Below, piece by piece: positions 3,552-22,589 of a stretch of DNA of 26,664 nt; position 1 is the stretch's first letter, and each line of letters starts with the position of its first letter. The notes under the pieces are model-generated. The model was not told the origin of the DNA. It worked only from the letters and a program-made list of their open reading frames with translations, and did not search any database. The DNA lies in the IMG/VR virus record IMGVR_UViG_3300045120_000403, positions 1-26,664 of that record, one strand, 5' to 3'. The stretch comes from a virus. The position numbers and the translations under genes are program-made.

Positions 3552-4390
3552 CAAAATGCCGTGCATTGAAAGAGCAGAACAGACCCTGCGGTAAAATTAC
3601 CAGCGGCCAAGGACGTATAGTTCGTAAACGAAACTGACGTAGTTGTGGATGAATCTTGTCTAGTCATATGTGGAGTGCCGTTAAGATTTTGGCAGCTACA
3701 AACCCACCCATTAGGCGCGGCCGGCATAGTGAACGCACCTTGACTCCCTGGCGTGGTCCCCACTGTCACCCTGAACGCCGCCGTGTTGTTAGCAAGAATC
3801 GCAGGCCCGGTTCCGAACCCGCTCGCAATCGTCGGATTCGTGCCGCTGATTATCAGGTTCCCTGCATCATCATTGAAAGATGTAGCAGTAAAACTGCCTA
3901 CGACATCGGCGCCACTACCAAATGATCCTCTGCCGCTAGCTTGTAAAACGGTGAAACCTGTGCCGGTAGTAGCACTTAGAATCTGAAAGTTGTCAGCAAA
4001 ACCAGACCGATTGTATAGGGTCCATTTAGTAATACCATTGTTCTGCAAAACGTAGCCAGTTTGATCTGCTGTACTATTAGAAATAAAAGCATTGCCAGAG
4101 GCAGTGGAAGTGACGGCGCCGGTGGCAGTAACAGTAGTGAAGCTACCGGCAAGCGTGCCACCAGTGATTTGCGCGGTTGTTGCGAGCGTGCCACTGGTCG
4201 GAAGGGTGATCGCAGTCGGCGCGGTGATCGTCAGAGTCGTCAGGAAGTTTCCGACCGTGGTCAAAGGGCCGGCCACGGTGACAATGCTCGTATTCGGATT
4301 TGCTTTGCCCGTGCCGCCGCCAAACGGACTGACGGGCGCACCGACCGCGACAGAGGCGAAAAGAGCGAGCGCGGCGAGAATCATTCTCAT
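3551..4390 (-). CDS. Secreted-type tail appendage protein (279 aa)
   Basis: The first 17 residues (MRMILAALALFASVAVG) look like a cleavable Sec signal peptide, unusual for a virion protein. The rest is low in charge and rich in Thr, Gly, Ser and Asn, with short repeats such as TSGTLATTAQITGGTLAGSF that resemble the beta-rich shafts of phage tail fibres. The C-terminal 60 residues have a more globular pattern with two Cys in WVCSCQ. A good AAGGA site precedes ATG 4390. It follows the tail fibre gene and precedes the lysis genes. A fibre or appendage role is likely; the signal peptide raises an alternative, an exported protein acting at the cell surface. Confidence 0.55.
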   Translation of the reverse strand: MRMILAALALFASVAVGAPVSPFGGGTGKANPNTSIVTVAGPLTTVGNFLTTLTITAPTAITLPTSGTLATTAQITGGTLAGSFTTVTATGAVTSTASGNAFISNSTADQTGYVLQNNGITKWTLYNRSGFADNFQILSATTGTGFTVLQASGRGSFGSGADVVGSFTATSFNDDAGNLIISGTNPTIASGFGTGPAILANNTAAFRVTVGTTPGSQGAFTMPAAPNGWVCSCQNLNGTPHMTRQDSSTTTSVSFTNYTSLAAGNFTAGSVLLFQCTAF

Positions 4391-4398
4391 GGCAATCC

Positions 4399-5393: not shown

Positions 5394-7298
5394 GAGCGCA
5401 GTCAGCGCCGGACTCATTGCCGCACCGCCGCGCGCAATCAGCGCGAGGAAGCGTTCATTGCCGGGTTGCTGCGCTAATGCCATCAACTCGCCCGCCTTTG
5501 CCGGATCGCGCATGAGAGCCGCGAGTTGCGCCGACATTTCCACATTTGCGCGACCGTAGAGCGCATCGGCGCCGCGCGCGGCAATGTTTCCGCCTACCTG
5601 CGCTGCGCCAAGATTGCGCAGCCACGTCGGCACGCCAGCGGCATCGATGAAGTTGGAATAGGCGAGCTTCTTGACCGTATCCGAGCCTGCGGTTCCGGCC
5701 GAGTTCGTTGCAGTCACGGAGCGTTGCAAATCCTGTTTCACCGCATTCAGCCGGTTCAGTTGCGCATTCGTCAGCGTGCCCTCAAGCGTCGCCTTGTTGA
5801 ACCCGGTCGCGCTTGCCGCGGTCTTGTCGGTCAAGTTGTTGATGTACTTGCCCGCTTCCAGCGTTCCGGTGACTTTGTTCGTTCCGCGGTCAAGTAGCGC
5901 CTGCGCGACTTCCATCTGGTTTATCGGCTTGCTCATGAGCGCGAATGTCGCGTTCGCTTTCGCATAGGCCGGGCTCAAGTCCTCGATCGTGGACATCAGA
6001 TCGCCCTTGAACTGCGCAACGGCACGCTCGGTCTCTTTGCCGATGCCGGTCTGCTTGGCGCCCGAAAGGATATCGTCCACGCCTTTTTTGATCCAGTGCA
6101 GGCCGTTGATGGAACCCGCCGGCCCCATCGCTTCGCCATTGACGCGGGCGAGTTCTTTCGCTTTTTCCAGTACGCCCGCCGGCATCCGTTCCAGCAGATT
6201 CTCAATCTGCGGCTGCATGGCGATCGCCATCTGCTTGTCAACGCCTTGCGCGCGGGCTGCGGCGTAGAGCCGATCCGCCATTACCGAGCGCTGCAATTCG
6301 GCCGCTTCCCGGTTTCCAGACGTGCCGGCAATGGCCTCAACCTCGGCAATCCGGGCTGCATTCTGCGCTTTACGCTGCGCCCCGATCTCAACCGCAGCTG
6401 TTGGCTCTATTGCCGTTGCCGTGCGCTCTAGCGAGGCAATGCCAGCATTACCGGACGCTTGCCCGACCGTAGGCATGGAGCCCGGCACAATCTCCCCTGC
6501 GACGGTCCTGGCAGCCTGCCCAGGCGCGGGAGGTCCGACGTAGGGCGCTCCAGCGGCACTCAGGCGCGCGGCAGCTTCGGGCGCATCGGCGCCGGCCACC
6601 CGGTTCAGCAAGCGGCCCATGATCGCCTCTCGCCCTTTGGCGTACAACGGTTCAGCCGCAGCCGAGGCAGCCTTGAAGGCCCCGACAGCGGCCGGTGCAA
6701 CGGCCGAGGCGCCGGCGCCAAGGCCGATATTGGCAATTGTCTCGCCTGTTCCGGTCGAAGGCTGCGCCGCGCCCATGCCTGCCCCGACGGCACCAGCGCC
6801 GGCAATCGTGCGCGGGGCGAGCAATGCACCGCCGGCCAGTTCTGCAACCGGCGCCGCCAGCGCGCGACCGGCGACTTTAAGCGCCCCGCCCGGCAGAAGC
6901 ATCATGCCGATATTCCCGGCCACATCCCCGATGAAACCGCCCGCCGTGTTCATCAGCGGCGCATCACGTGCGCGCGTTTCGGCGACTTGCTGGCGCATTT
7001 CCTCAACTTGGGAAAGAGGCTGCCCAGTAATCAATCCGCCCAATGTTTGCTTGCGCGGCGAGAGCAGATCAGCCGCGCCGGCGCCAATCTGCGCAAGCCC
7101 GGTGCCAGTGTCGGAAATTGCCTTGCCGACTCCGATCAGCAAATTCCGGCCGAATGAATTGCCCTCGGTCGGATCGTAACTTTGCGCCGGCTCAGCCTTT
7201 GCCGCCTGATATGCCTTCGCCACTGTGTCAAACTCAGGCGTGCCCTTTTTCGCCTGATTCTGGACGATCCAAGCGGCGTACTCGTCAGCCGTTGCCAT
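5373..7298 (-). CDS. Large internal virion / DNA ejection protein (641 aa)
   Basis: The N-terminus MATADEYAAWIVQNQAKKGT followed by FDTVAKAYQAAKA is a motif seen at the start of many podovirus internal virion proteins. Residues 90-220 are Ala/Gly-rich, with hydrophobic stretches of the kind seen in membrane-penetrating ejection proteins, and the rest is long helical, Ala-rich sequence. It is the third of three large genes in the place of the P22 ejection genes 7, 20 and 16. It starts at ATG 7298, sharing a base with the upstream stop (TAATG). In P22 such proteins leave the head and form a conduit for DNA across the cell envelope. No transglycosylase motif is visible. Confidence 0.7.
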   Translation of the reverse strand: MATADEYAAWIVQNQAKKGTPEFDTVAKAYQAAKAEPAQSYDPTEGNSFGRNLLIGVGKAISDTGTGLAQIGAGAADLLSPRKQTLGGLITGQPLSQVEEMRQQVAETRARDAPLMNTAGGFIGDVAGNIGMMLLPGGALKVAGRALAAPVAELAGGALLAPRTIAGAGAVGAGMGAAQPSTGTGETIANIGLGAGASAVAPAAVGAFKAASAAAEPLYAKGREAIMGRLLNRVAGADAPEAAARLSAAGAPYVGPPAPGQAARTVAGEIVPGSMPTVGQASGNAGIASLERTATAIEPTAAVEIGAQRKAQNAARIAEVEAIAGTSGNREAAELQRSVMADRLYAAARAQGVDKQMAIAMQPQIENLLERMPAGVLEKAKELARVNGEAMGPAGSINGLHWIKKGVDDILSGAKQTGIGKETERAVAQFKGDLMSTIEDLSPAYAKANATFALMSKPINQMEVAQALLDRGTNKVTGTLEAGKYINNLTDKTAASATGFNKATLEGTLTNAQLNRLNAVKQDLQRSVTATNSAGTAGSDTVKKLAYSNFIDAAGVPTWLRNLGAAQVGGNIAARGADALYGRANVEMSAQLAALMRDPAKAGELMALAQQPGNERFLALIARGGAAMSPALTALLHAQQQ

Positions 7299-12035: not shown

Positions 12036-12755
12036 TTATCCGCTCCTGCCGTTGTACCATCCGTACCTAGAGCCAAGCCCGACGATCGCCGCATCCAATT
12101 GCAGCACGCGCGGCTTGCGATTTGATCGTTTCACGATGCCGATGGATTCTGCCGCGTGCGCGACTACATCGGGAAAACTCGTCAGTTTCTTCCCGAACAT
12201 TGGGGCTAAGCGCAGCGCCAGGTTATAGACGAACGCATCCGAATAACCAGGAGGGAATGAAATCGTAGTCCCGACCGCCGCAACCTGCGTCAGCAGCCGA
12301 TCAATCGAAAACGTGATCGGAACAATCGCGTCAGGAACCGGCCACAGCGTCACCGATGCGGCCGGGAAATCGTTGATGAAGAGGTAACGAAGCGGGAACT
12401 GGCCGGGCTGAGTCTTTACTCCTACCATGTTGTATTCTGCCTGCGTCATCATGGTGCAAGCGAACGTGGCGCCGTTGATGACGGTGTACGCGGGCTCCCA
12501 GATGCGCTGTGGACGATCAGTGTTCCACGTGGATCCGGGGCCGATGGGATACGTCGCTAAATTGGCGACGCTGTTGAAGGTCTGATTGGCCGTGCCGTAG
12601 ACCGCGAGATTTTGCGCGCTCCAGCTATCCAAAAGCTGGTTGAACTTGCGGAGGCAGTCGGACGTCTCGTCAAAAGTGAGCGTCTGATCCGTGCCGAGGG
12701 AACTTGTTAACCCAAGCGCATCCTCGATGTACTGGAGAGCAGTAGCGCTCGGCAT
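12036..12755 (-). CDS. P22 gp4-like head-to-tail connector / tail accessory factor (239 aa)
   Basis: The N-terminus (LQYIEDALGLTSSLGTDQTL, then CLRKFNQLLDSWSAQNL) and the YSDAFVYNLALRLAPMFG motif around 190 fit the family of tail accessory factors that bind below the portal, as P22 gp4 does. P22 gp4 is shorter (about 166 residues); this 239-residue form matches the BPP-1-like relatives. It prepares the portal for gp10. ATG 12755 has no strong ribosome-binding site but is the first possible start, because an in-frame TGA lies just upstream. Confidence 0.65.
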   Translation of the reverse strand: MPSATALQYIEDALGLTSSLGTDQTLTFDETSDCLRKFNQLLDSWSAQNLAVYGTANQTFNSVANLATYPIGPGSTWNTDRPQRIWEPAYTVINGATFACTMMTQAEYNMVGVKTQPGQFPLRYLFINDFPAASVTLWPVPDAIVPITFSIDRLLTQVAAVGTTISFPPGYSDAFVYNLALRLAPMFGKKLTSFPDVVAHAAESIGIVKRSNRKPRVLQLDAAIVGLGSRYGWYNGRSG

Positions 12756-13652: not shown

Positions 13653-14867
13653 TTACGGGATGGTGAGGTACTTGACACTGAGCTCGGGATATGTCGCCGC
13701 GTAACCAAAGAGCACATCAATCCGCATGTTGGCGATATCCTGCGCGCCATCGAAGTACTCCAGCACGCGCAAACGGAATCCCTCATCGGATACCTGCTTC
13801 ACAGACATTACGCCATTGGCCGGTGGTTCCCACATTGGCACCATGGCCAGCGTGAACGCATCCTGATGGTACCCGATATTCGTGCTGTACGCCGTGCTCG
13901 CGGCCCCGAGAATCACGAACGGCTGCGCCGTAGTCGGTGAAGCCGTGACATTTTGGAACGGTCCCGAGGTCACGATTGCCGGACTGATCGGCAGCGATAC
14001 TGCGCCCTGCGCCACGTCCGCCGTAATCACGAAATTGGCGAGCGCACCCGTTGACGTGCGCGACTGCGGGTTGACCGCGAAAACGCCAGGCAGCGTGATC
14101 GTGGTGCCGCGTGTGATCGTGCCAGCGCCGGTTGCCGCCACCGTGATTGTCGATCCGACCTGATTAGCGCCGTTGATGTTGGACGCGGTGCCAGCGCCGT
14201 TCGTATGCACATCGACGTTCTGATCCATAGCGGGATGGATGCCGAAGCTGTCCTGCATGTAACCGGTGCGGTATTGGCCTGAGATTTTTTCGGGCATGTT
14301 GAATAGGCCCGCGAAGCCTTGAATCATGGCGCCGTTTAGCGCCGGATTCATCACGATATTGCGGTTGCCATCCTTCACGGGCGCCGCCATTTCGTCCAAC
14401 CGCTGATTGATCGACGTGAGCGCGTTGATTGCGAGCGCCTGCGTCGTCGGCAGTGCGCCCGTTGGATTCAGCGTGTTGAATGTTGAGAAGTGCGCGAGCT
14501 GCAAGCCCTGGCGGTCGATTTCGTTCGCAACCGGCGCCATCGCAGCACGCACCTTTTTCTCGAACTGCGTGAGCGACAGCGTGCGCTCGAACGAGTTGAA
14601 GAAAATATCGCAGCCGCCCTGCGAGACCGTCAGCGGAATTGTCGTTTCCACCGTGGTCTGGGGCGCCGCCACTCTGCCCGCGCGGTAGGTATAGCGCGGC
14701 GGACGCTTGATGTTGATCGTTGCGCCCGGCGCGTAGCCGCGACTCATGTTCGATGCATATTCGTCCTCATAGTCGCGGTTGACCGCAGCGGCAAAGGACA
14801 GCATGTTTTTCAGGACGGCGAGCGCCTCTTTCGCCACCAGAGACGATGTGACAAGAACGTTGGACAT
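13653..14867 (-). CDS. Major capsid protein (P22 coat-type)
   Basis: The 404-residue product has the P22-type coat hallmarks: an N-terminal TSSLVAKEALAVLKNMLSFA segment, then MSRGYAPGATINIKRPPRYT and PLTVSQGGCDIFFNSFERTL, and C-terminal LAMVPMWEPPANGVMSVKQV and DIANMRIDVLFGYAATYPEL. A domain rich in Gly, Ala and Thr around residues 215-300 (ANQVGSTITVAATGAGTITR) corresponds to the extra I-domain region of this family. The HK97 fold is therefore expected. P22 coat is about 430 residues. It is preceded by a good GGAAGGA site (ATG 14867) and follows the scaffold gene, as expected for assembly of a procapsid. Confidence 0.85.
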   Translation of the reverse strand: MSNVLVTSSLVAKEALAVLKNMLSFAAAVNRDYEDEYASNMSRGYAPGATINIKRPPRYTYRAGRVAAPQTTVETTIPLTVSQGGCDIFFNSFERTLSLTQFEKKVRAAMAPVANEIDRQGLQLAHFSTFNTLNPTGALPTTQALAINALTSINQRLDEMAAPVKDGNRNIVMNPALNGAMIQGFAGLFNMPEKISGQYRTGYMQDSFGIHPAMDQNVDVHTNGAGTASNINGANQVGSTITVAATGAGTITRGTTITLPGVFAVNPQSRTSTGALANFVITADVAQGAVSLPISPAIVTSGPFQNVTASPTTAQPFVILGAASTAYSTNIGYHQDAFTLAMVPMWEPPANGVMSVKQVSDEGFRLRVLEYFDGAQDIANMRIDVLFGYAATYPELSVKYLTIP

Positions 14868-14959: not shown

Positions 14960-15835
14960 TCATCTTCGCGCCCATCGCGCGCCTTGCTTCGCGCGTAGCG
15001 CTTCGTACTCTTTCTGGCTCATATCCCCGGAGAGTTCCCTGGAGATGCTGCGCCCGCCGTTCAACGGCGAGGGCGGCGCCGGTGCGTTCGTTCCTTTCTT
15101 CCCGGCAGGACTCGCCAGACTGGTTTCCAGCTTCCCGAGTTCGGCCACTTGCCGCAGCGGAGAGAGGTCCGTAATCCGCTCGGCCACGTCAGGGTTTTTC
15201 GCAAGATGATGCAGGAGCGCAGGCCCGACTTCGGATTCCACGATCGCCCTTCGCGCGGCGCCGGAGAGGTCGGGTAGCCCTTCCTCAACGTACGCGGAGA
15301 CGACACTCGCGTAATCCTTCTGCTGCGCCTGGAATACGGTTTCCCGCGCCTGCCAGTCGGCGGCGAGCTTTTGCGTGCTCGCTACCTCGCGGCCTTGCTG
15401 CTCTGCTTGCTGGCGTGCCTGGCGTTCGCTCTGGAGGCTTTGATTTGCCACCTGCGCCGCGTCGTACCTTGTAACGGCGCGCAAGTAGGTTTCGTAGTCT
15501 TCGAATTGCTCGCGCTTCGGTTCGCCTGTTTCCTGCGCTGGCCGAGACTGCGCTTCGAGCCGCTGGTTCTGCTCTCGGAGTAGCCTGACTTCGGTTTCGG
15601 CTGCGACGCGGGCTGTTCTCTGCCGGTCTAGCCTACGCTGGAATGCGGACTGCTTCCGAGCTTCCTGCTGCTCGGTAGTCTCTGCTGCGTTTTGCGCGAG
15701 GTCTTCCGTCGTGGCGGGTGCGCCGGCTTGGTCTTCGGCGCCGGGGGCCGGTAGGGCTGCGCCGCTAGATGACGCAGCGTCGGCATTTTGCCCAGATTCA
15801 GCGCCAGTTGTCAATCCCGGTGCATTTTCCATCAT
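14960..15835 (-). CDS. Scaffolding protein (P22 gp8-like)
   Basis: The 291-residue product is highly helical, with an N-terminal Ala/Gly/Thr-rich linker region, a long charged coil (about residues 58-170, with ARKQSAFQRRLDRQRTARVA and RLLREQNQRLEAQ), and a basic C-terminal end that includes SQKEYEALRAKQGARWARR, similar to the helix-turn-helix coat-binding tail of P22 scaffold. It lies immediately before the coat gene, as in P22. AGGAGG precedes ATG 15835. It is expected to direct procapsid assembly and then exit the shell. Confidence 0.8.
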   Translation of the reverse strand: MMENAPGLTTGAESGQNADAASSSGAALPAPGAEDQAGAPATTEDLAQNAAETTEQQEARKQSAFQRRLDRQRTARVAAETEVRLLREQNQRLEAQSRPAQETGEPKREQFEDYETYLRAVTRYDAAQVANQSLQSERQARQQAEQQGREVASTQKLAADWQARETVFQAQQKDYASVVSAYVEEGLPDLSGAARRAIVESEVGPALLHHLAKNPDVAERITDLSPLRQVAELGKLETSLASPAGKKGTNAPAPPSPLNGGRSISRELSGDMSQKEYEALRAKQGARWARR

Positions 15836-15852
15836 TTCCTCCTACGTCAAAT

Positions 15853-15897
15853 TCAGCGGCGTGAGCACCAGCGCCGCGTTCGCTTGCGTTTCGTCAT
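15853..15897 (-). CDS. Possible 14-residue highly basic peptide
   Basis: Between the SGNH hydrolase and scaffold genes, ATG 15895-15897 overlaps the hydrolase stop (ATGA) and runs to TGA 15853, encoding MTKRKRTRRWCSRR. Nine of fourteen residues are Lys or Arg, and the frame ends 17 bases before the scaffold start. The overlap and position fit translational coupling. It may equally be chance, since short frames are common. No known peptide of this type can be named. Confidence 0.25.
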   Translation of the reverse strand: MTKRKRTRRWCSRR

Positions 15898-16517
15898 GGT
15901 ATCGACAGCGCGGCAGTTTTGGCGAGCACAGCGACTACGCCGTACCCAATGCCAGTTAAATGAACTTGATCTGCAACAAAATAGGTTGCGTTGGTAGACG
16001 CCCCAGGTGCTCCGATATTCGCATTCAGCCCGGTGTCGCATAGCGCATCGGCGAATGTCGCCCAATTCGCCCGTATGTTTGTGTTCACTGTCTGCCTATC
16101 GGTCTCGAATGATCCTGGAATGCCAGCGTCTGACCGCGGCAGCAACGTGAATGCGACTACTTTCCAGCCAGCCGTTTTTCGCGTCTGACAGTATGCAGAG
16201 AAACTTGCGTAAACTTGCGCAGCGGTCAAACCGCCAAGAGCTAAATCATTGGTTCCTCCCCACGCACCAAGGATGTGTTTCGTATGCCCGTCTGCTATGA
16301 GTGGGTCTATATTGGCTGGAGCGTTGGTTATCATGCCGCCAGTGAACTGCCCGGATACGCCGAAATTTCTAACCATCCACTGGTTCGTCATGGAGAAGAG
16401 AAATTGCGTCACGTAGTCACGGTTTGCGCCTGCGCTGATGCCCAAGGTCAAACTGTCTCCGTCTCCGACATACAGGAAAGGCCCGTAATCAGGAATCGTC
16501 ATGGAAGCGAGTGACAT
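15894..16517 (-). CDS. SGNH/GDSL-family hydrolase in virion gene block
   Basis: The 207-residue protein has the SGNH blocks in order: GDSLTLG with catalytic Ser22; NFGVSGQ with Gly53 or Gly56 as the oxyanion-hole residue; GGTND with Asn90; and DQVHLTGIG with Asp183 and His186. The active-site set is complete, so it is probably an active esterase, for example removing O-acetyl groups from host surface glycan. It has no signal peptide and lies between a lectin-like virion gene and the scaffold gene. Its start is directly after the upstream stop (TAAATG), with AGG just before. A virion-associated carbohydrate esterase or a lysogenic conversion enzyme are the main alternatives. Confidence 0.8.
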   Translation of the reverse strand: MSLASMTIPDYGPFLYVGDGDSLTLGISAGANRDYVTQFLFSMTNQWMVRNFGVSGQFTGGMITNAPANIDPLIADGHTKHILGAWGGTNDLALGGLTAAQVYASFSAYCQTRKTAGWKVVAFTLLPRSDAGIPGSFETDRQTVNTNIRANWATFADALCDTGLNANIGAPGASTNATYFVADQVHLTGIGYGVVAVLAKTAALSIP

Positions 16518-17717
16518 TTAGATTACCTGTTGCAAGAACAATTGTACGTTTTTAATGGTGCCGTTCCACTGAAATGAAGCACCAGTGACATGCCCGATGC
16601 CAATGCTGCCCGCTGCAAGAGTTCCAGCCGCGCCAACAGCGGGCGGGAGACCGTCTCCAGTAATCATCACCCCCGCCGGACCCCACGAGGATGCGCGCTT
16701 TCTCACATCGATACTCATGTCTGACATACCGTTCTTGGTCACTGAAGCAGTAGCACTAAGGGATAGCGCGGTGCTGCCAACCAATCCAGACTCATATAGC
16801 ATAAAGGCAAAACCGGAAGTGCTAACCGCCACGCAGTTCGTGGCGGCGATTGTCCAGTTAGAAAAAAGTTCCGCGTAACACGCACCTTGTGAAAGATTAA
16901 GATTTCCTGCTTGCGGAAAACTCAGTGTATCTGCCGCCCTTGCCGCGCCGGCAGATACCATAGGAGAGCTTGCAAATTGATTTGCGGTCAGAGGCTCAAA
17001 CTGATTGAAATCCGCCTCGATCACGTCGCCAGCGCTGCCCATGACGATACCGTATGCAACGTTGAGGATAGATGCGTTCAGTTGCACTCGCGTCTTAGTG
17101 ACGCTGTTGATTTGCGCAGTCACGTCGAGTGTCGTCGCGCCCTGCTCAATCACGATTGTTCCGCTGCCTGATACCCTGCGCAGGAATACGCCGTAGGTGC
17201 GCGCCGACGCCGCCGCAACGAGCGTTTGCAGGATCGTGCCGCCTGGGGCCGTTGCGGTCAGCGTGGTACAGGCGTTCGGCACGCCGTCGATGCCGGTCGC
17301 TGTTTTCGCGGCCGTAATGCCGATCTTGACCCATGAGGCGTCTGTCATGTCCCGAATGGCCGCTGTTGGCGTAACAAGCTGCACGCCTGCAAGTTCGCTC
17401 AAGTAACCGCCATACGCGCCTGCCGCTGTATTCGCGCCAAGGTAGCTTGATCGAGCGATACCTGTTGCGACTTGCCCCCATAACCCGCTTGCGAGCTTTG
17501 TCCACGCGACGGAAGCGCGGGTGAATGTCGGCGTTGCAGAGCCTAGAGCAATTACCGGAATGGTATTGACGATGCCATTGCCGAGATCATCTAAAAGCAG
17601 CAAGAACGACGGCGAACCAGCGCCGCCAGCGCCGCCAGCTTCAGAATCGCTCAGCCGCGTGAATATCTCGCCACGGCGATCCGATGCAATGAATTCCTTT
17701 GGAAAACCAGCGCGCAT
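16518..17717 (-). CDS. Lectin-like virion/appendage protein (399 aa)
   Basis: The sequence is Ala/Gly/Ser/Thr-rich and beta-dominated. It contains TPTFTRASVAWTKLASGLWG, SYLGANTAAGAYGGYLSELA and TTLTATAPGGTILQTLV, followed by FNQFEPLTANQF, and an end with GIGHVTGASFQWNGTIKNVQ. This order occurs in phage structural proteins with concanavalin-type lectin domains. The first 35 residues are polar and end in a flexible GGAGGAG linker. Such proteins bind host-surface sugar or are part of a virion appendage. Its ATG shares a base with the stop of the preceding gene. Pairing with the SGNH esterase suggests a combined glycan-binding and deacetylating unit; this is inference. Confidence 0.6.
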   Translation of the reverse strand: MRAGFPKEFIASDRRGEIFTRLSDSEAGGAGGAGSPSFLLLLDDLGNGIVNTIPVIALGSATPTFTRASVAWTKLASGLWGQVATGIARSSYLGANTAAGAYGGYLSELAGVQLVTPTAAIRDMTDASWVKIGITAAKTATGIDGVPNACTTLTATAPGGTILQTLVAAASARTYGVFLRRVSGSGTIVIEQGATTLDVTAQINSVTKTRVQLNASILNVAYGIVMGSAGDVIEADFNQFEPLTANQFASSPMVSAGAARAADTLSFPQAGNLNLSQGACYAELFSNWTIAATNCVAVSTSGFAFMLYESGLVGSTALSLSATASVTKNGMSDMSIDVRKRASSWGPAGVMITGDGLPPAVGAAGTLAAGSIGIGHVTGASFQWNGTIKNVQLFLQQVI

Positions 17718-18022
17718 TACGAATACCAGGCCGCCGTGAGCAGTCCGCCTGCGATCGAAATAACGCTCAAAGTTTGAACGCCGTACAGCTCATACCCGAT
17801 CGGGTTCAACTCGCTCGCGGTGCCGTCGGTCACGTCGGCGGGCACGGTTGCGACTGTGTTCTTGACTGCGGCAAAGTCCGACGTAGCCGAGAGAATCACG
17901 CAATTGGCGCCGGCAGGCGGCGTCAGCGTTTCGGCGACACCTGCAGCAAGCGAACGCGAGGTGATGAAGTCAGAAGGCGGGCGAAGGATGTACTGGCGCA
18001 GAAAGTTAGGCAGTTTGACCAT
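17717..18022 (-). CDS. Small phage virion protein (101 aa)
   Basis: The product MVKLPNFLRQYILRPPSDFI continues with LAAGVAETLTPPAGANCVIL, DVTDGTASELNPIG, and ends in SIAGGLLTAAWYS. This set of motifs is seen in small virion proteins of podoviruses, with an extended beta-sandwich pattern, and is unrelated to any enzyme. It begins 11 bases downstream of the acb2-like gene and ends on the ATG of the lectin-like gene. A structural role, such as a head or fibre component, is likely but not directly shown. Confidence 0.6.
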   Translation of the reverse strand: MVKLPNFLRQYILRPPSDFITSRSLAAGVAETLTPPAGANCVILSATSDFAAVKNTVATVPADVTDGTASELNPIGYELYGVQTLSVISIAGGLLTAAWYS

Positions 18023-18033
18023 TGGAGTTTCCG

Positions 18034-18258
18034 TTAGAAAAATTCAGGCTTGGCGATTGCGCGAGTGAGCGCCATAAGGCCGGTTTGTAGGTCGGTCGCG
18101 CCGATGCTCACCCAACGCTGATCAAAGGCCGCGTTGGTGCGCATCTTGACAACAAGTTCCCCTAATTCCTTACCTTTTTCCTTGACCATGTTCATCGCAT
18201 CAATATCTTCTTGTGCGAGTTCGCGGTAGCCGCTGATCTTGCGATGCTGATTTTCCAT
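18034..18258 (-). CDS. acb2: Acb2/Tad1-family protein: probable anti-CBASS cyclic-nucleotide sponge
   Basis: The 74-residue protein reads HRKISGYRELAQEDIDAMN near the start and RWVSIGATDLQTGLMALTRA at residues 48-67, the signature of the Acb2/Tad1 hairpin domain. In the family this is a helical protein that assembles into a hexamer and sequesters signalling cyclic dinucleotides or trinucleotides, blocking CBASS immunity. Tyr11 and Lys26, positions I recall as ligand-contacting in the studied Acb2, are both present. ATG 18258 overlaps the upstream stop (TAATG) behind GGAGGGG. It lies between the portal and capsid genes, so it may be made late, or from an internal promoter not seen here. Activity is not shown by the sequence alone. 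Confidence 0.8.
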   Translation of the reverse strand: MENQHRKISGYRELAQEDIDAMNMVKEKGKELGELVVKMRTNAAFDQRWVSIGATDLQTGLMALTRAIAKPEFF

Positions 18259-18470
18259 TACCCCTCCTTGACTGCGTGAATTTCATCTTTGATTTCGTTG
18301 GCCGTTCTGTCGAGTTCCCACGCAACGTCAACGCTCATGCCGCGCTCGCCCCGCTTCAAGCCGAGTGCAGCGGCGAATACCTCGACAACACCCATCTGAG
18401 CTTGCAAGATTTCGTTTTGTCGGCGCAAGTCACGAATCTCCGCGCTTGCACGTTTCAACAAATCTTTCAT
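18258..18470 (-). CDS. Conserved small phage protein upstream of acb2-like gene (70 aa)
   Basis: The start is ATG 18470 (MKDLLKRASAEIRDLRRQNE), preceded by a strong AGGGGGG site; an in-frame TTG six codons earlier is less likely. Residues 1-30 form a charged helix, then AQMGVVEVFAAALGLKRG and GMSVDVAWELDRTANEIKDE. Similar small proteins with the same ending (VEVFAAALG, DVAWEL) occur in several phage genomes, but I know of no function. It ends on the acb2-like ATG, so the two are translationally linked. Confidence 0.65.
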   Translation of the reverse strand: MKDLLKRASAEIRDLRRQNEILQAQMGVVEVFAAALGLKRGERGMSVDVAWELDRTANEIKDEIHAVKEG

Positions 18471-18500
18471 TGTTTCCCCCCTTTTCAAGTTTCAGTTTCA

Positions 18501-20870
18501 TCACGGCGCTGCGGGTTTGCCGCCATTCGGTTTCGCCTTCGCCGTTTTGTCCGCAACAGCGAGCTTCGACCCCGCCATGATTTCGGCGACGCGGATTTTC
18601 GTGTGCGCTTCAAGCGTGGCCTTCCACGCCTCGAATGCTTCGCCTTTCTCGCCATTCAGCCCCTCGGCGGCGGCGTTCGCGGCGTCAATTTCGATTTGCT
18701 GCTGCTGCTGAAGCAGCGTCGCCTGCGCCGTCATGTGCGCAGTCTCTGCCTCCTGCGCCGCCTTGCGCGCATTGTGCGGCACGGCGATCGCCTCGGCCTG
18801 GGCACGCAGCAAGTCCGCCTGCGCCGTCATTGTCTTGGCCTTCGCTTCCTCGATTGCCGCGGCGAGCTTCATGCGCTCGGCCTCTTGACGCTGCGGTTCA
18901 AGCTGCTGCTCATTCAGCACTTGCTGCTGCTTCATTGCGTTCAACTGCTGGCCCGCAATATCTGCCTTCTTTAGCGTCTCCTGCGCCTGTTGCAATTGCT
19001 CTTGCATCTGGGCAATCATCTGCCCGGCTTGAGCGGCTGGTATCGGCCCCTGCGGCGTCTGAATCACGGGTTCGTCTGGTTCGCCCTTCTGCGGCCCGCG
19101 GATCTGCGGCGGGATGGTCTTGGCGATGCGCTCGGCCATTTCGTCGGCGCCGGGCCAGTCTTGATTCTTCACGTACAGATCGCCTATCACGTTCCACAAG
19201 CCCGGATTCTTCGCCATGTTCTCGGCCATGCCGTCAGCGGCCTCCTGGCGCAACGTGCTGTAGCTCGGCCCGCTCGACACCGTCGTGTCGTACTCCCCGC
19301 CGGTCATATCGTTCAGGATTCGCGTGATCGCTTGCCCGGTCTGGTCCTGCTCAACTTGCGGCGTGTTGATGGGCGCATGCCCGATCGTGCCGTCTTCGTT
19401 CATGATCTTGGCGACGCCCTGCCAGTCGTAGTAGTACGGGATCATGTAGTTGAGGCAGCGCGCGGCTTGCCTGATCGCCCTCATCAATCCATCCATGTAA
19501 TGAAATGACGCCATTTCCCCCTGGCTCTGCTGGCGCTGCTCCTGGATGCCGGATTTCGCCGTGCCTGCCGCACCAAGTCGCCCCTGGAATGTGCCTGTAA
19601 AAACTCCGGTTGTTTGTTTTACATTGTCGCCAGCGTGCATAGCGAGCGCGAGGAACCCGACTGGAATATCCGCCATCGGCTGGCGCTGCGGCGCTGGAAC
19701 AATATGCCCGTCAACCGTGGTCGGCTTGTAGAGCACGTACGGCAGAATTGAGCTCGCCACGGCGCCCCATTCGTCCTCGTGGCCTTCCTCTTGCCCTTCT
19801 GCCATCACCCACGGCGATTTGCTGCGCGCGGACACTTCCTCCGTTGCCACGGTCATGAACACGTTATAGCTTTGCGCCGGCCCCTTCGCATTGCGAATCA
19901 TCCCGCTGCGCGTGACTTTGCCTTCGATGTCGATTTCGTCGCCATACACGCAAAAGACCGGAATCCACTTGCACTTGATCTCGGTCTTTTCCAGAATATC
20001 GACGGCGGTAATTTTGTGCCACATCACCTTGCAGCGAGTGCCCGGCCGCTCTTTCTCGATCGTCACACCCGGCGGCAACTCAAGCAAGTCGTTCTTGAAA
20101 CCGCTCTCGCCATTCGATAGCAGCACCACCGTCGCGGCCGTCTTTTCGATCCGGTAATACTCGCAGATCAGCACGTTGTCCAAGCTGCCCCACGCGCTAT
20201 AACCGCTTGCGCCGTTGAATAGCGACGCATCGCATGCTTTTGCTTTCGGAAACTGCCGCTTGAATTCCTTGCGATCGATCAGCGACTCGATGAAGCACCA
20301 TTGCATGCCGCTGCCGTCTGGTTCCGTATTCAGCGGATCGATCTTCACGCTGAGCGCATTGCGGATGCGCTTGAAGCACAGCTTTTGATTGAATGTTTTG
20401 TCATCGTAGTATTCCGGCACAAGGCGGAAGTATCCGAAGCCGATTCCAGCCGCGCTGTTCACCGCTGTGTCATAAGCGGCATCGGCATTCGACTCATACT
20501 CGATGTGCCGGATCATGCCTTGGCGCACCTTCGCGGTGTCGTCATCGGCTGAGTCGCCGACAGGATGAACCTTGATGCTCGGCGTATTCTGCCGCTGATC
20601 GTTCGTGACTTGATGCAGGTACGTGGGCAGCGAATTGACCGTAATCATCGGCCGGCGCGCAATCGTGCGCTGCTGCACCGCAATCGGGTCCCACTGGTTC
20701 GTTCCGCCTTTCAGGAAAAGCAGATCGTCGCGCGCGTCTACGCGGTTCTCGCTCTCGGCGGCTTCGGCGATGGCGTAGCGTTCGCGCGCCTCATTGAGGA
20801 TGTCACTGTCCGACTGCTCGCCTGCATCCGGCAAATCTTCGGCGTCGGGTTCGTTTGTACTATAGGCCAT
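18501..20870 (-). CDS. Portal protein (P22 gp1-like)
   Basis: The 789-residue protein matches P22-type portals: YAIAEAAESENRVDARDDLL near the N-terminus, RPMITVNSLPTYLHQVTNDQ about 73-92, AVNSAAGIGFGYFRLVPEYY about 135-154, and a long C-terminal helical barrel (from about residue 600) with QMQEQLQQAQETLKKADIA and many Gln, Ala and Glu residues. P22 portal is 725 residues, so this length is typical. The dodecamer forms the DNA entry vertex and the docking site for terminase, then gp4. It overlaps the end of the GNAT-like gene by 11 bases. Confidence 0.85.
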   Translation of the reverse strand: MAYSTNEPDAEDLPDAGEQSDSDILNEARERYAIAEAAESENRVDARDDLLFLKGGTNQWDPIAVQQRTIARRPMITVNSLPTYLHQVTNDQRQNTPSIKVHPVGDSADDDTAKVRQGMIRHIEYESNADAAYDTAVNSAAGIGFGYFRLVPEYYDDKTFNQKLCFKRIRNALSVKIDPLNTEPDGSGMQWCFIESLIDRKEFKRQFPKAKACDASLFNGASGYSAWGSLDNVLICEYYRIEKTAATVVLLSNGESGFKNDLLELPPGVTIEKERPGTRCKVMWHKITAVDILEKTEIKCKWIPVFCVYGDEIDIEGKVTRSGMIRNAKGPAQSYNVFMTVATEEVSARSKSPWVMAEGQEEGHEDEWGAVASSILPYVLYKPTTVDGHIVPAPQRQPMADIPVGFLALAMHAGDNVKQTTGVFTGTFQGRLGAAGTAKSGIQEQRQQSQGEMASFHYMDGLMRAIRQAARCLNYMIPYYYDWQGVAKIMNEDGTIGHAPINTPQVEQDQTGQAITRILNDMTGGEYDTTVSSGPSYSTLRQEAADGMAENMAKNPGLWNVIGDLYVKNQDWPGADEMAERIAKTIPPQIRGPQKGEPDEPVIQTPQGPIPAAQAGQMIAQMQEQLQQAQETLKKADIAGQQLNAMKQQQVLNEQQLEPQRQEAERMKLAAAIEEAKAKTMTAQADLLRAQAEAIAVPHNARKAAQEAETAHMTAQATLLQQQQQIEIDAANAAAEGLNGEKGEAFEAWKATLEAHTKIRVAEIMAGSKLAVADKTAKAKPNGGKPAAP

Positions 20871-21203: not shown

Positions 21204-22589
21204 TCAACTCATCCAGCCACCGCCAATGATGGCGCGCTGCTCAAGCGGCTTTTTCTTCACGCTCTGATTCGGAAATGGCATCCTGCCGCGCGCTAGATAC
21301 CGCTTTGCGTCCGCAGTGTGCGAAGTCCAATCGTGCAGCGGCGCGTCTTCGAATCGTTGCAGCTTTTCATCCCATTTGCGCCTGTATTGACGCAGCGCGT
21401 CGAGCGCCCGGTCCATGCGTTCCTTTGCCTGTTCCATCGTTTCCTCTGCAAACGGCAGCGGCTCCGCATTCCACTCGCACAGAGGCAGCAATTGCCGCAC
21501 CGCCTGAATCCCGTCGTCAACCGCATCGCGTTGCAGGATGCGCACTTTTACCCCGAGACTTTGCATGGTCTTCCGGCGCGTCGTTCCTGTCCCAAGTTCG
21601 CTATTGTCACCATCATGCGGCCAGATGTGATCGGCGTACACATACGGCATTTCGGCGAGCTTCTTCGCGTACCAATCGAGTCCGACGCCTGAACCTTCAA
21701 TCACGTTTATCAAGCGCACGCGACCGGAAGACGGCTGCTGAAAAAACCAAATCACTGTGCTGTCGCCGATGCCCAAATCCCAGGCGGTGCCAACAGGCAG
21801 ATTCGGAATGTGAGGGAACAAGCCAATGCGTCCTTCGCGTTCGGCGCGCGACATCAATTCGCCATAGTACGCTCCGGGTAATGCTGCATCGAAGTCGCAG
21901 TAGTACTCCTGCGCTACAATTGCGTCCGCCTCTTTTTTCCCGCGCTCTGCGGTCAACTCGCGGCGTTCGCGGTCGATAATTTCTTTCGAGATTACATTCG
22001 TTTGCTCAACAGTAAGAATCTGCCCAAACCAATCTTTATCCTCCATTGCGAATGTAACGAGTTTGGCGAAGTGGTTGCGTCCGCGCGGGGTGGAAATGAA
22101 CAGCGCCCATCCACCGTTCTCCGCAAGAATCGGGCGCAGCAATGCCCATGCAGACGGATCGGCAAGCGCATACTCGCTGAATACCACACCTACCGGCGGA
22201 GAACCGAGCAGAGAATTGAAATTGTCCGAGCCAACAACTTGCCACGTTGATCCGCCGCGCAAGCGGATAAACATATCCTGCTCTCTCCGCTGCTCGCAAA
22301 TTTCGTCCGGGAAAGCATCATCAATGCGGCGCCTGCTGGTCCTCGGATTTACAGCATCCCAGATCGCCTTACGCGCCTGATTCGCAGCAGGCAGCATGTG
22401 CCAGTAAGAGCCAATGCGCTGCATCGCGGAACATGCGGCCCAATGCAGCGCGATATCATCCTTGCCGCTGCGTCGATGCCATGCGAGCGCAATGCGCTTA
22501 ACGCCGGATTCAAGCGCGGTCCACGCCGGCAGTTGATAGTGGCGGGGCCGCCAATCGTGCGCAGGCAAACGAATGCAGTTATCTTCCAT
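21204..22589 (-). CDS. Terminase large subunit (DNA packaging ATPase/nuclease)
   Basis: Residues 38-44 (HRRSGKD) form the Walker A region with Lys43; SPPVGVVFSEY (130-140, Glu139) is the Walker B region; and STPRG at 166-170 is the coupling motif. The C-terminal RNase H-like nuclease is marked by AWDLGIGDST (Asp271), INVIEGSG (Glu298) and WPHDGD (Asp326). The 461 residues are a normal length. It cuts and pumps DNA into the procapsid through the portal. Walker A carries Asp after the Lys rather than Ser/Thr, a variant I associate with a terminase subgroup including BPP-1-like phages. ATG 22589 overlaps the small-subunit end by 11 bases. Confidence 0.9.
   Translation of the reverse strand: MEDNCIRLPAHDWRPRHYQLPAWTALESGVKRIALAWHRRSGKDDIALHWAACSAMQRIGSYWHMLPAANQARKAIWDAVNPRTSRRRIDDAFPDEICEQRREQDMFIRLRGGSTWQVVGSDNFNSLLGSPPVGVVFSEYALADPSAWALLRPILAENGGWALFISTPRGRNHFAKLVTFAMEDKDWFGQILTVEQTNVISKEIIDRERRELTAERGKKEADAIVAQEYYCDFDAALPGAYYGELMSRAEREGRIGLFPHIPNLPVGTAWDLGIGDSTVIWFFQQPSSGRVRLINVIEGSGVGLDWYAKKLAEMPYVYADHIWPHDGDNSELGTGTTRRKTMQSLGVKVRILQRDAVDDGIQAVRQLLPLCEWNAEPLPFAEETMEQAKERMDRALDALRQYRRKWDEKLQRFEDAPLHDWTSHTADAKRYLARGRMPFPNQSVKKKPLEQRAIIGGGWMS

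Follow-up and report, generated by a model that had tools for sequence, protein, structure and literature searches.

The window analysed here, a stretch of viral DNA of 26,664 nucleotides, encodes a 74-residue protein that, judged by its sequence and predicted fold, is a member of the known Acb2 family. This protein very probably acts as a short-hairpin sponge for CBASS signals, carried in an exchangeable slot and made with the head proteins. The new part of the finding is the exchange of Acb2 and Lockin, the second a Thoeris-type sponge, at a fixed site behind the portal gene.

Coding status and genomic context of acb2

The sequence-only reading had claimed an open reading frame at 18034-18258 and had named no strand. 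The frame is present on the minus strand, with its ATG at 18258, a stop codon ending at 18034 and 74 codons in all; on the plus strand of the same interval, stops interrupt reading and there is no open frame. The motif reported for the protein, DLQTGLMALTRA, was found at residues 56-67, and Y11 and K26 are also present. The closest relatives of the 74-residue protein are encoded on contigs L004 and L005 (85% and 82% of residues identical, respectively). The numbers of nucleotide differences at codon positions 1, 2 and 3 were 8, 6 and 32 in the comparison with L004 and 11, 11 and 39 in that with L005. Since these differences are biased towards third positions, acb2 is a coding gene under purifying selection.

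All genes around acb2 run on the minus strand (Table 1). The location between portal and scaffold genes given by the sequence-only reading was correct, but acb2 is not adjacent to the scaffold gene, as orf101, orf399 and a GDSL lipase-like gene intervene. Similarly, the start of acb2 does overlap, as had been described, but with the stop of orf70 and by one base (TAATG). No family above cut-off was detected for orf70, searches of phages, viral contigs and the fetched loci gave no relative, and the idea that it is a widespread partner of Acb2 was rejected because no relative was found in these searches. A promoter and terminator scan near the cassette gave nothing usefully above shuffled sequences and revealed no convincing promoter specific to acb2.

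Table 1 Features around the acb2 gene in the window
Feature	Position	Strand	Evidence or remark
Terminase	21204-22589	-	Upstream of portal
P22-like portal, upstream boundary of slot	18501-20870	-	PF16510 4.4e-153
Putative exchangeable slot: orf70, acb2 and last portal codons	18033-18525	-	Junction sequences, shared boundaries
orf70, 70 aa, same cassette as acb2	18258-18470	-	Coiled-coil-like by eye; TAATG overlap with acb2
Shine-Dalgarno-like AAGGAGGGG of acb2	18261-18269	-	Sequence, just upstream of acb2 start
acb2-family gene, 74 aa (MENQHRKISGYRELAQEDIDAMNMVKEKGKELGELVVKMRTNAAFDQRWVSIGATDLQTGLMALTRAIAKPEFF)	18034-18258	-	PF24729 1.4e-16; phrog_717 1.2e-20; PDB 8h2j 2.1e-18; AF2 pLDDT 89; Foldseek best 8h2j
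orf101, downstream boundary of slot	17717-18022	-	95-99% conserved in sisters
orf399 and GDSL lipase-like gene, further variable cargo	15894-17717	-	GDSL PF13472 4.2e-8; gap content varies in relatives
Head scaffolding protein	14960-15835	-	phrog_8865 1.2e-41
P22-like major head (coat) protein	13653-14867	-	PF11651 1.3e-32; phrog_283 6.8e-63

Two observations concern neighboring genes. The terminase is 89% identical to that at L064:1887-3239, whereas the adjoining portals are only 34% identical, which points to a recent exchange of packaging genes. In L097:6001-7499, homologs of orf101 (95%) and orf399 (60%) adjoin a tail-gene-like ORF; the corresponding region of the window (15894-18022) is perhaps a mobile adsorption-like module.

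Family and fold

The sequence-only reading had assigned the protein to an Acb2/Tad1 family and proposed an HMM search as a check. This search matched PF24729 (Acb2_Tad1_hairpin) with an E value of 1.4e-16 and 60.8 bits, the curated cut-off of the family being 27 bits. The protein also matched PHROG 717 above cut-off and the sequence of the solved Acb2 8h2j (Table 1), while the PADLOC and NCBIfam models gave no match. Jenson et al. drew on PHROG 717 to collect homologs of T4 Vs.4 (PMC10097602). An AlphaFold model, for which 76 aligned sequences were used, shows a hairpin of two helices (residues 16-41 and 47-69; mean pLDDT 89). With this model as a Foldseek query, the best solved structures were 8h2j and 8h2x (probability 1.0), followed by T4 Vs.4 (7uq2).

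The Acb2 part of the assignment is thus borne out by three sequence libraries, the fold and the conservation of ligand residues (see below), and the Tad1 part is not. Tad1 shares the helical hairpin of PF24729 and has in addition an antiparallel N-terminal beta-sheet domain (PMC12043709). That domain is missing here: the model of the 74-residue protein contains no strand, the chain is too short to accommodate one, and the frame upstream belongs to another ORF. Tad1 identity was therefore ruled out.

Ligand-contact residues and hairpin length

T4 Vs.4 contacts cGAMP through Y8, K23 and R79 (PMC10097602), and these align to Y11, K26 and R66 of the 74-residue protein. Across 76 relatives, Y11, R12, L14, M62, R66, A69, P71 and F74 are invariant and K26 is nearly so (at least 90% of the sequences). 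At the positions of the T4 contacts H11 and F82, the protein has L14 and A69 instead. F82 is also absent from the solved PaP2 Acb2, and from the alignment both residues look T4-specific; hence, they were not treated as defining Acb2.

The protein resembles PaP2 Acb2 (p26; 8h2j, 8h2x) in its 53% identity over the aligned length, its N-terminal motif, the numbering of Y11 and K26, the motif in the C-terminal helix, the terminal Phe and the best fold match. It differs in the hairpin tip, which is 19 residues shorter (74 versus 93 residues), and in location, as the PaP2 gene ends a replication block and does not follow a portal gene. T4 Vs.4 shares the aligned Tyr, Lys and Arg contacts, the second fold match and PHROG 717, but is only 28% identical, and its gene adjoins the tk/vs/regB genes, away from head genes. 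The 74-residue form was the commonest among the fetched relatives; to our knowledge, no member as short as this has been tested.

Variation of the site among sister phages

A search with the portal protein identified sister contigs whose portals are 92-98% identical to that of the window. None of them, whether searched whole or at the site, encodes acb2. In L086 and L093 the slot is empty, with orf101 directly following the end of the portal gene. In L084 and L085, one gene of 96 codons occupies the slot between portal and orf101. The portals of these four contigs are 96-98% identical to that of the window. In L087, L088 and their relatives, the whole block from orf101 to the GDSL lipase-like gene is missing. 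According to the junction sequences of the sister contigs, on which the slot boundaries rest, the shared sequence stops at 18526 on the left and resumes at 18032 on the right, so that the insert of the window comprises approximately 493 bases, made up of orf70, acb2 and the terminal part of the portal tail. The insert genes have a G+C content of 51-53%, versus 59-60% for the portal, orf101 and coat genes, which is consistent with a recent gain of the cassette.

By sequence and model, the 96-residue proteins of L084 and L085 are homologs of Lockin. The L084 protein (12411-12701) matched the PDB entry 9p8l with E values of 1.1e-21 (phmmer, single sequence) and 8.5e-34 (profile), and its model (pLDDT 90) matched the same entry in Foldseek (1.4e-7, probability 1.0, approximately 50% identity). 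There was no significant match to Pfam or PHROG. The title of 9p8l is 'Structure of Lockin in complex with 3'cADPR', and by analogy with its homolog the L084 protein may bind 3'cADPR, a signal of Thoeris (PMC13232231). Although found in the identical slot of sister phages, the Lockin homologs have an unrelated, beta-rich fold, and Lockin is directed at a Thoeris signal rather than at CBASS signals. No Lockin was detected elsewhere in L086 or L093, and no Lockin or Tad2 was found in the window as a second sponge. In L088, a Lockin gene lies at 5638-5925, approximately 4 kb upstream of the portal. Relatives of Lockin are encoded on 130 matched IMG/VR stretches, and a search of 50,697 phage isolate records gave zero matches to the family.

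The spot behind the portal, which the sequence-only reading had missed, thus looks from these junctions like an exchangeable slot for anti-immunity cargo. It appears to exchange sponges for nucleotide signals, because near-identical phages have it empty, with a Lockin homolog or with Acb2, and because the contig L262 (described below) carries both. It should be noted that the gap between portal and scaffold genes in this phage group (relatives of window positions 15836-18500) measures between about 60 bases and 6 kb, and that most of its cargo looks like decoration, spike or lipase genes, not sponges.

Sponge genes at other portal junctions

L262, unrelated to the phage of the window by the searches made, encodes in order a terminase-like ORF, a portal (phrog_12082, 3.4e-155), a 58-aa ORF, Lockin, a 120-aa ORF, Acb2, a putative scaffold and a major head protein (phrog_9953, 6.6e-108). 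In L064 and L066 the portal gene is followed by Acb2, and the next gene in L066 is that of the scaffold. Acb2 also lies just behind a portal or portal-type connector in L004, L026 and L061, and Lockin lies downstream of one in L251, L237, L294 and L247. On the Klebsiella plasmid NZ_CP103584 (L298:1983-2746), a gene of the DUF2829 family (the Tad2 family, PF11195) overlaps the start of an acb2 homolog by four bases. Sponge genes thus pair up and recur at portal junctions.

A location next to head genes is recurrent for Acb2 and not a rule. Among 111 dereplicated Acb2 loci, the nearest sizeable neighbor is in some cases a portal, terminase or head-tail gene, but many loci lie beside endolysin or replication genes, and single-strand-binding-like genes also occur as neighbors; a general tie of Acb2 to head genes was therefore rejected. 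The location of acb2 within a virion gene block, pointed out by the sequence-only reading, is real but has a precedent in Beetrevirus PM105. There, the head operon includes an Acb2 homolog, located one gene after the major head protein; it differs in having a longer hairpin (108 aa) and in belonging to another type of phage and another slot.

Some small ORFs near these genes deserve mention. The 58-aa and 120-aa ORFs beside Lockin and Acb2 (L262:4790-7030) are candidates for further anti-defense genes. In the podovirus-like contig L004, three small ORFs (63, 97 and 67 aa; 3699-4393) follow Acb2 and precede a putative scaffold.

Proposed function and alternative readings

Known relatives of the protein are hexamers, and both Vs.4 and PaP2 Acb2 bind cyclic nucleotides at protomer interfaces. 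The small all-helical protein of the window would likewise assemble into a multimer and sequester cyclic dinucleotides, and probably trinucleotides, of CBASS at its protomer interfaces, so that CBASS effectors would stay off. The acb2 and orf70 genes would have been gained as one cassette at the position immediately following the portal gene. This position belongs to a co-directional block of head genes, and the scan gave no convincing promoter for acb2 alone; the sponge is therefore probably co-expressed with the head proteins.

The alternative with most weight, although we regard it as rather unlikely, is that the Acb2 fold was kept while its specificity drifted, for example towards cyclic trinucleotides only, other nucleotide signals or the cyclic nucleotides of other defenses. 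Published Acb2 homologs do differ in ligand spectrum (PMC12043709), and the protein of the window has a shortened hairpin tip and has lost the stacking F82 and the contact H11. Nevertheless, the core dinucleotide contacts Y11, K26 and R66 are retained, and PaP2 Acb2, which also has no F82, was solved with 3',3'-cGAMP.

Two further readings would deny the protein a role as a sponge in this host. It is improbable that the gene is decayed or unexpressed cargo, a passing insertion without function: the absence of the cassette from all near sisters in which the site is spanned does make it recent and optional, but its frame is intact, its ribosome-binding site is good, the third-position bias is evident and the ligand residues are invariant. 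Still harder to maintain is the view that it is a virion or assembly protein that merely resembles Acb2. The place between portal and scaffold genes and the recurrence near portals in other phages would fit such a protein; on the other hand, the gene is dispensable in sisters with 94-98% identical portals, the family elsewhere adjoins lysis, replication or T4 tk/vs/regB genes, and the identity to proven Acb2 is strong. A sponge for CBASS signals is thus the reading that we retain.

Host

A betaproteobacterial host is plausible because the coat and portal proteins resemble those of Rhodoferax phage P26218 (67% and 50% identity, respectively), and a near-identity DNA search against phage isolates gave no match, so that the host is not fixed by any isolate relative. 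In P26218 and in EBPR podovirus 1, the portal gene adjoins the scaffold gene without cargo. The proposal that this phage would add a new host group to the range of the sponge did not hold, as Acb2 genes are already present in betaproteobacterial genomes, namely those of Nitrosospira, Nitrosovibrio, Azonexus, Aromatoleum, Ideonella, Rubrivivax and Alcaligenaceae. Acb2 was found in 7 of the 399 genomes sampled from the order of the Nitrosospira genome. Our literature search found no paper naming both Acb2 and betaproteobacteria.

Discussion

Finding a known sponge gene in a further environmental phage is unremarkable, and the added value here lies in the exchange. Among near-identical phages, one and the same site is either empty or occupied by a sponge of the CBASS type or of the Thoeris type, and both sponges occur side by side in an unrelated phage. 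This suggests that phages exchange small cassettes that protect against different nucleotide alarm systems. The slot is, in addition, a place to look for unknown anti-defense genes.

The location in the head operon also bears on timing. Thoeris is triggered by phage capsid proteins (PMC12578639) and CBASS by terminase-derived RNA (PMC10686824) and, according to work cited in PMC12409349, by a prohead protease. With these as published triggers, a sponge gene located in the head operon would be expressed along with the trigger. This fit in timing is one that we infer, and the head-operon position makes the question of when the sponge is made a testable one.

Tentatively, and as a possibility that we rate somewhat below even, the gap behind the portal in many podovirus-like phages may be a recurrent, head-controlled docking site for sponges that bind immune nucleotide signals (Acb2, Lockin and perhaps unknown ones, orf70 for instance), which would be made with the head and terminase triggers of CBASS and Thoeris. 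If so, the unannotated small genes found in such slots would be good candidates for new anti-signaling proteins.
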